Assembly (NCBI GenBank): GCA_013823945.1
Contig: PNMZ01000006.1
Coordinates: 62,001 to 126,000, forward strand
DNA: 64,000 bases
Reading direction: 5' to 3'
DNA from: a bacterium
GTDB lineage: Bacteria > Armatimonadota > Fimbriimonadia > Fimbriimonadales > Fimbriimonadaceae
The first letter of the stretch is position 1. Each line of letters begins with the position of its first letter. This document shows, piece by piece, positions 51,393 through 55,472 of this stretch. The translations under genes were made by a program, and so were the position numbers. The notes under the pieces are model-generated. The model had not been told where the DNA came from, made no database searches, and saw only the letters and a list, made by a program, of their open reading frames with translations.

Positions 51393-51461
51393 CAAGTTAG
51401 CACACCGAAGTCCGAAAAGGAAGGGGTTTCACAAATTTTGTAACCGTTTGTTGCACAAATG
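51393..51461. promoter_or_regulatory. Region upstream of parM, promoter and parC-like repeats
   Basis: An extended -10 TGC-TAACTT on the minus strand (around 51393-51401), and repeats TTTCACAAAT, TTTGTAACC and CACAAATG (51427-51461). The last two match words in the 55-kb repeat cluster, suggesting common binding by ParR. Candidate parC. Confidence 0.4.
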
Positions 51462-51500
51462 GGACCACTTTCAAGAAACGGAAGGAGAACATATGGAAAG

Positions 51501-54514: not shown

Positions 54515-54922
54515 TCAATAGTTTGAGATTATCCCTTTCGGACGTCTTGGTTTTTGACGACCATCCTCAGTAGGTGGATAACGTAGTGGGGGAGAGTCCA
54601 ATGACATCTGATAACAGACGACTTTTGTGATTTCAAGTTTTTTGCGATCGATGTAACAAGTCATGAAAAGGTTGGCCTCAGGATTAGAGGAAAGCATCAT
54701 CGAGGCCTGAGACTCGACATCTGTCGTACAGGTTAAAGGGACGTGGAGTCCAGCTTCAAGAGCGATGACTCCCCTCTGAAAAGAATGGTCGGTGATTCCT
54801 ACCACGAGTACTCGATCAGGCTCTTTCCAGAGATACCGGACCTTGTCACTTTTAAGAAACGTGGTCAGGCATAAAACAGTAAGCGGGATGAAGCCAATGA
54901 TGACGGCAATTTTTTCAAACAT
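54515..54922 (-). CDS. Membrane-anchored protein, 135 aa
   Basis: Hydrophobic helix at residues 4-22 (IAVIIGFIPLTVLCLTT), then a soluble part ending in basic/proline residues. ATG 54922 has AAAGGGGTTAACTATC. First gene downstream of the repeat cluster. Confidence 0.65.
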   Translation of the reverse strand: MFEKIAVIIGFIPLTVLCLTTFLKSDKVRYLWKEPDRVLVVGITDHSFQRGVIALEAGLHVPLTCTTDVESQASMMLSSNPEANLFMTCYIDRKKLEITKVVCYQMSLDSPPLRYPPTEDGRQKPRRPKGIISNY

Positions 54923-54959
54923 GATAGTTAACCCCTTTAGGATGCAATGTGTATCAAAA

Positions 54960-55420
54960 GAACACAAATAGATTCAAAATGTTTAATCATTGACAAGAGT
55001 CACAAAAGAACACAAACGTGTACATTAGGACACAATAGGACACAAATTATTATGAAATGGCTCAAACAAAGGGTTTTATTGTGTCCGGACACAATAGATA
55101 CCAAAAGAACACATTAGGATACAATAGGAGTCTTTGTGTCCTAATTGATTAAATGTATAATAGCAACCAAATGTCTCCTTTTGTGACCAAAATGGTTCCG
55201 TTTGATATTTTAAATGGCTATAAGTATTGATATAGAGCCATTTATTTGTGTCCGGAGTCAATCGGTTACATACGGTCACAAAGAATAACAACCGGTCACA
55301 TAAGGGTGCATATCAACTGGGTCTATTTGAACACAACAGGTTCCGTTTGTACCCATTTCCTGAGCGTATTTTTTATGATGTCACATATTCTTTATTTGAA
55401 TTGGTTACAAACGAACACAA
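54960..55420. repeat. Cluster of GRACACAA-type repeats
   Basis: Some 14 copies in both orientations of an eight-base word with consensus G-[GA]-[AT]-CACAA, for example at 54960, 55008, 55028, 55038, 55107 (GAACACAT), 55117 (GGATACAA), 55134 (inverted), 55246 (inverted), 55274, 55329 and 55413. Local sequence is AT-rich. Typical of binding-site arrays at origins or centromeres. Confidence 0.75.
55077..55096. promoter_or_regulatory. Perfect 20-bp palindrome in the repeat cluster
   Basis: TATTGTGTCC joined to GGACACAATA: two inverted copies of the repeat without spacer. A natural dimer or initiator site. Confidence 0.6.
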
Positions 55421-55445
55421 ATGCACCTTCATCTGATTTAAAGGA

Positions 55446-55472
55446 AAGGGTGCCTTATGGCACCCCTTTTTA
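55446..55472 (-). terminator. Intrinsic terminator after the Nudix gene
   Basis: GGGTGCC and GGCACCC arms around ATAA, A and T tracts on both sides. Follows the Nudix stop at 55470. Confidence 0.85.

Follow-up and report, generated by a model that had tools for sequence, protein, structure and literature searches.

Two helically phased repeat arrays distant from the parM operon of an apparent phage-plasmid are probable ParR-bound centromeres

In the present study, we describe two arrays of a short, helically phased repeat on a 194,812-bp contig (C6) which, judging from their sequence, are probably the ParR-bound, parC-like centromeres of a type II ParM/ParR system, which have become separated from the operon and duplicated, while a small operator remains at parM. 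One array lies in the window (the whole stretch of 64,000 nucleotides that was analyzed, corresponding to bases 62001-126000 of C6, from a genome of 3.16 Mb in 19 contigs). The two arrays lie 3.6 kb and ~20 kb from parM, and only a small cluster of units is found immediately upstream of that gene. Because of this arrangement, we regard the system as a variant rather than as a classic member of the ParMRC family. The features are listed in Table 1; coordinates without a prefix are those of the window.

RESULTS

C6 carries a number of phage genes, including those for a terminase large subunit, a portal protein, and a protein with a head-protease-like match, and the window contains a gene for RecA and (as judged by eye from the translations) a replisome-like gene set. 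At its right end, the contig has an open frame that resumes at the left end; the resulting protein of 1754 aa can be aligned over the junction with homologues of ~2,080 to 2,310 aa in relatives. Since the frame and the alignment both span the junction, C6 probably represents a circle that has been cut. Plasmids of 200 to 240 kb from Bacillus, Paenibacillus, and Cytobacillus encode the closest portal proteins, and the replication module is largely common, in order, to C6 and the four such plasmids compared. On these two grounds, C6 is apparently a 195-kb virus maintained in the bacterium as a plasmid (a phage-plasmid), for which we infer plasmid replication. The third-codon-position GC and AT skews keep one sign on the plus strand across C6, whatever the strand of the gene, with no switch in 195 kb; this suggests that replication is one-directional. 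No tRNA was found at the gathering score in the whole of C6, and no Rfam family was found at that score in its first 140 kb. Some 660 bp without a convincing gene (C6:134120-134780; L016:14120-14780) fold better than shuffles on the plus strand (z -2.7) and match GEBRO RNA weakly and in part (E 0.001, far under gathering); a weak ctRNA match adjoins the stretch, which possibly is a large structured RNA.

Table 1. Features of the ParM/ParR system and its repeat arrays on C6
Feature	Coordinates	Strand	Remarks
Candidate ParR, 139 aa	49635..50054	-	Overlaps parM end
parM-like actin-like protein, 432 aa	50051..51349	-	Sole ALP_N protein in genome
parM-promoter cluster (GGTTACAAAA, TTTCACAAAT, GGTCCCATTT, TTGCACAAAT)	51425..51466	.	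Proposed ParR operator
Array 1	54940..55422	both	Candidate ParR-binding, centromere-like array; ~28 GGNCACAAAN units
10-bp-phased runs of array 1	54940-54979, 54998-55047, 55087-55126, 55159-55188 (-), 55254-55313, 55403-55422		
Perfect palindrome TATTGTGTCCGGACACAATA	55077..55096	.	20 bp (10+10), two units head to head, no spacer
Imperfect head-to-head dyad ATTTGTGTCC/GGAGTCAATC	55244..55263	.	167 bp from perfect palindrome
Terminator-like hairpin GGGTGCC-TTAT-GGCACCC	55448..55465	+	Edge of gene-free gap
Array 2	C6:133235-133544 (window coordinates 71235-71544; L016:13235-13544)		Outside window; 17 units, 10-bp phased

A two-strand motif search of 54940-55440 recovered the units of array 1 (weight-matrix score, >5), 20 on the plus strand and 8 on the minus strand. 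The units are short, degenerate, nonpalindromic, and G/C containing. An earlier note on this DNA had described a dense array in two orientations with a perfect 20-bp palindrome, and both descriptions are borne out. Its tally of about 14 copies of GRACACAA is reached approximately only if one mismatch is allowed (13 matches to GGACACAA with ≤1 mismatch; the best 8-mer in shuffles had a mean of 6.9 and a maximum of 12); exact copies number 10 within 54960-55420 (7 on the plus strand, 3 on the minus strand), out of 11 in the window, for which 4.26 are expected and where 0 of 100 shuffles attained 11. The array occupies the AT-rich, gene-free region that the note had reported (54923-55469), which is 64.5% AT versus ~50% in the contig and measures 547 bp provided that the left-edge ORF begins at its ATG (54922).

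Two properties were absent from the earlier note, namely, the 10-bp helical phasing and the existence of array 2. The self-identity of array 1 at lags of 10, 20, and 30 is 0.38, 0.37, and 0.34, versus a background of ~0.27, and none of 300 dinucleotide shuffles came near this signal. In a motif-free periodicity scan of C6, period 10 appeared among the leading windows only at array 1 and at C6:133221-133540, and the ten best chains of units in 10-bp register in the whole 194.8-kb contig all fall in array 1 or array 2. The latter was found with the motif learned from array 1, from which it is 16 kb distant; 14 of its units are on one strand, and its consensus (GGNNNCAAAN) is looser. Both arrays sit inside a replication/recombination gene block, and the neighbors of array 1 comprise a Nudix-like gene (PHROG 8902, with BLAST hits annotated as Nudix), genes for a 154-aa protein of no assigned function, RecA, and a 150-aa protein of no assigned function, and a gene with a match to a Holliday-junction-resolvase PHROG. 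DNA similarity searches with array 1 gave no match in phage records and only weak, unrelated matches in plasmid records.

The parM product scores 36.9 bits against Pfam ALP_N (cutoff, 26.3), and its nearest solved structures are 4xe7/4xe8 and 4xhp (phmmer E=1e-65 for 4xe8 and E=7e-128 for 4xhp). Across 113 genomes of the same order, ParM was found in this genome only, and no close relatives of ParM and RecA were found in viral contigs. The gene directly after parM encodes the candidate ParR, which comprises a conserved N-terminal DNA-binding-like segment, a variable proline-rich linker, and a short C-terminal helix. This layout fits that of known ParR proteins, in which DNA is bound by an N-terminal domain and ParM by a C-terminal tail (PMC5016525). 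With a probability of 96.6% and a supporting alignment, hhalign also matched the candidate to the genes that follow parM at related loci. It matched no Pfam (including RHH) or NCBIfam DNA-binding family, and searching by sequence found no solved structure for its family. In an AlphaFold2 model, helices were placed at residues 18-29, 33-49, and 128-138, the first two of them confidently and after a possible strand. Since the overall confidence of the model is low, no beta-strand is shown, and Foldseek returned no useful match, an N-terminal ribbon-helix-helix is only suggested.

The 158-bp region upstream of parM carries a cluster of array-1-type units, and the two words that the earlier note had placed there, GGTTACAAA and CACAAATG, are indeed present within the promoter cluster. 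When the array 1 motif was applied to the 51 intergenic regions, the parM promoter was the best window outside the arrays; its score was matched by only 3 of 5221 random 158-bp stretches outside the arrays, and none of 300 column-permuted motifs equalled this result. In the reverse test, a motif learned blindly from the 158-bp promoter was run in 300-bp windows over the 194.8-kb contig, and its three best windows were the promoter, array 1, and array 2. This held at widths of 8, 9, and 10; the lead of array 2 over the next window was slim at the last of these widths (39.9 versus 39.3). These reciprocal tests, the phasing at 10 bp (a typical property of ParR sites), and the detached arrays at related loci (below) support the suggestion, raised in the note, that ParR may bind in both places.

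Related ParM proteins (32 to 41% identity) were taken from 18 contigs of bacterial genomes plus four plasmid records, and 18 loci were each tested with a motif learned from the parM promoter and with control motifs drawn from random stretches of that locus. Seven of the 18 (L021, L023, L098, L099, L100, L105, and L110) have a promoter cluster together with a single detached cluster 2.3 to 5 kb away; equally good control motifs numbered 0 of 40 in five of these loci and 1 of 40 and 2 of 40 in the other two. The flanks examined at the remaining 11 revealed no convincing detached array, and several other related loci have a second cluster no more than ~300 bp from the first. In the Paenibacillus loci, the detached cluster immediately precedes a Replic_Relax gene. 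These Bacillales plasmid loci (L021-L024 and L096-L112) thus resemble C6 in their ParM lineage (4xe7/4xe8/4xhp type), in having a partner gene of the same kind and a motif cluster in the parM promoter, and, in the seven, in having a second, detached cluster. They differ in their unit words, which are AT-rich and partly palindromic (GTTAA, CTAGTTTA, and the like) versus GGNCACAAAN in C6, and in having one detached cluster, within 5 kb in the stretches examined, whereas C6, a phage genome, has two larger arrays. ParR/parC words are known to vary by lineage (PMC9426499).

Of eight relatives (phage-plasmids and phages), seven (NZ_CP118109.1, NZ_CP048288.1, NZ_CP114067.1, NZ_CP021670.1, NZ_CP065512.1, NZ_AP024502.1, and OR602862.1) carry an actin-like gene of a divergent lineage, and it seems that the C6 phage exchanged its actin-like gene. 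In the first four records, the gene stands just before the homologue of the first gene of the late block (C6:155324), a site that differs from that of parM in C6. No ParA-type or tubulin-type motors were found in the eight relatives, which leaves the actin-like genes as their segregation candidates. Five relatives that have replication genes in common with C6 but a different actin-like protein were searched in full, and none contained a C6-like array: the best 300-bp window for the array motif scored 31, versus 107 and 61 in the C6 arrays. Motifs learned from the relatives' own actin-like gene upstream regions also gave no clear detached array. Since relatives with another actin-like protein lack the arrays, these accompany this particular ParM/ParR pair and not the common replication genes.

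A period scan of five relatives did find repeats of other kinds in two Bacillus phage-plasmids. Arrays of ~23-bp units (CTGAAAGAATTTTTCATACCCC-like) lie beside a 332-aa gene (NZ_CP114067.1:86600-87430 and NZ_CP021670.1:193860-194480), and a short array of TCAAAA words ~10 bp apart (NZ_CP114067.1:126160-126290 and NZ_CP021670.1:25740-25800) follows recA, where it is flanked by two HTH-like genes and occupies a place comparable to that of array 1. Both are unlike the GGNCACAAAN motif, and we rejected them as its counterparts.

DISCUSSION

The anatomy of the C6 system fits the ParMRC mechanism, save that the centromere would lie away from the operon. As in the plasmids R1, pB171, pSK41, and pCW3, an actin-like ParM is followed directly by a small ParR-like gene, tandem direct repeats recur with a 10- to 11-bp period (10-bp repeats are bound by the ParR of pB171, and 11-bp repeats are bound by that of R1), and a related sequence is found in the parM promoter (PMC5016525, PMC9426499). 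In the known systems, the wrapping of DNA by ParR dimers on helically phased repeats yields a ring or solenoid, which caps the ParM filament, and ParR at the promoter represses the operon (PMC5016525). By analogy, the candidate ParR would bind cooperatively to the 10-bp units, in step with the helical turn, so that every phased run would be wrapped into a partition complex. These complexes, and thereby the phage DNA, would be moved by ParM filaments to daughter cells or replication sites, while ParR on the parM-promoter units would repress its own operon. We infer all four elements of this scheme (ParR binding, ParM coupling, segregation, and repression). Some findings are not readily reconciled with it. 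The candidate ParR has no match to a known DNA-binding family; classic type II parC is one locus upstream of the parM operon (PMC5016525), whereas C6 has two large, distant arrays and a small promoter cluster; the C6 units differ in character from the words of related loci; and 11 of the 18 related loci lack a convincing detached array in the flanks examined.

Other phage-borne systems offer partial parallels. In the excerpted account of Corynebacterium prophage CGP3, an actin-like protein (AlpC), an adaptor (AlpA), and a repeat array (24 alpS repeats, TTAAnnG) are likewise described, but alpS is within the alpAC promoter region and that account mentions no detached array (PMC4446434). Plasmid prophages of the Bacillus phage B83 type also combine a plasmid-kept phage with ParM and a small adaptor, in their case a ribbon-helix-helix protein, and iterons have been proposed as the centromere (PMC6669507, PMC8026635); unlike the detached C6 arrays, the B83 iterons form a 165-bp region adjoining the genes (PMC6669507). 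A detached two-array layout was not found in a limited search of the open-access literature.

The earlier note had left open whether array 1 was an origin or a centromere. One could indeed read the arrays as iterons of replication origins, with the phased units serving as binding sites for a phage initiator that opens adjacent DNA; the word at parM would then reflect coordination by the initiator or simply chance. The AT-rich, gene-free setting of array 1 near recA would suit an origin, as would the position of array 2, which adjoins ssb at ~0.5 kb from a perfect DnaA box (C6:134013), and that of the detached array of the related Paenibacillus plasmids just upstream of Replic_Relax. However, array 1 contains no perfect DnaA box (TTATNCACA) and has no recognizable initiator gene beside it (an initiator of unrecognized type may be present), relatives with replication genes in common lack the arrays, and the same units occur in the parM promoter. 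The GC-skew check that the note had proposed for an origin revealed no sign switch at either array or anywhere else in C6. A unidirectional origin need not show such a switch, and we discarded skew as an origin marker here, since its single sign throughout C6 is uninformative as to position. An origin is less likely than a centromere and, in our estimation, improbable; of the note's two proposals, it is the centromere that the motif tests and the phasing favor.

It is a little less probable again that some other phage regulator (e.g., a lysogeny repressor or a nucleoid-like protein) uses the units as operators, coating the arrays and controlling parM. Sites in both orientations and head-to-head dyads are compatible with such a protein, and each array lies on the 5′ side of a small gene of no assigned function (54515-54922 for array 1; C6:132886-133146 for array 2, which separates this gene from ssb). 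Yet array 1 yielded no sigma-70-like promoter, the ten best phased chains are confined to the two arrays, and beyond them the parM promoter alone stands out among the 51 intergenic regions; a global regulator should mark more promoters, so this single marked promoter counts against the idea. As for a functionless old tandem duplication or an artifact of composition, the short and degenerate units might invite that explanation, but the phasing, the two orientations, and the reciprocal recovery of three separate places all exceed what shuffles and permuted motifs produce, and we give it very little credence.

Returning to the centromere interpretation, one tentative extension, which we would put at somewhat short of an even chance, is that in this ParM/ParR lineage the operon often retains no more than an operator, with the centromere array or arrays elsewhere beside replication genes, and that C6 has two of them, perhaps for two-site capture or for positioning or bridging replicating phage DNA. 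Two arrays could provide two capture sites per genome, or capture near the replication proteins. If the C6 arrays are indeed detached and duplicated centromeres, the centromere and the operon can evolve apart in actin-based segregation, a question on which the Bacillales plasmid relatives with a detached array near the Replic_Relax gene also bear. The C6 system would then serve as a test of why the repeats need helical phasing and of how two centromeres per DNA affect filament capture, and it bears on the inheritance of 200-kb phage-plasmids.
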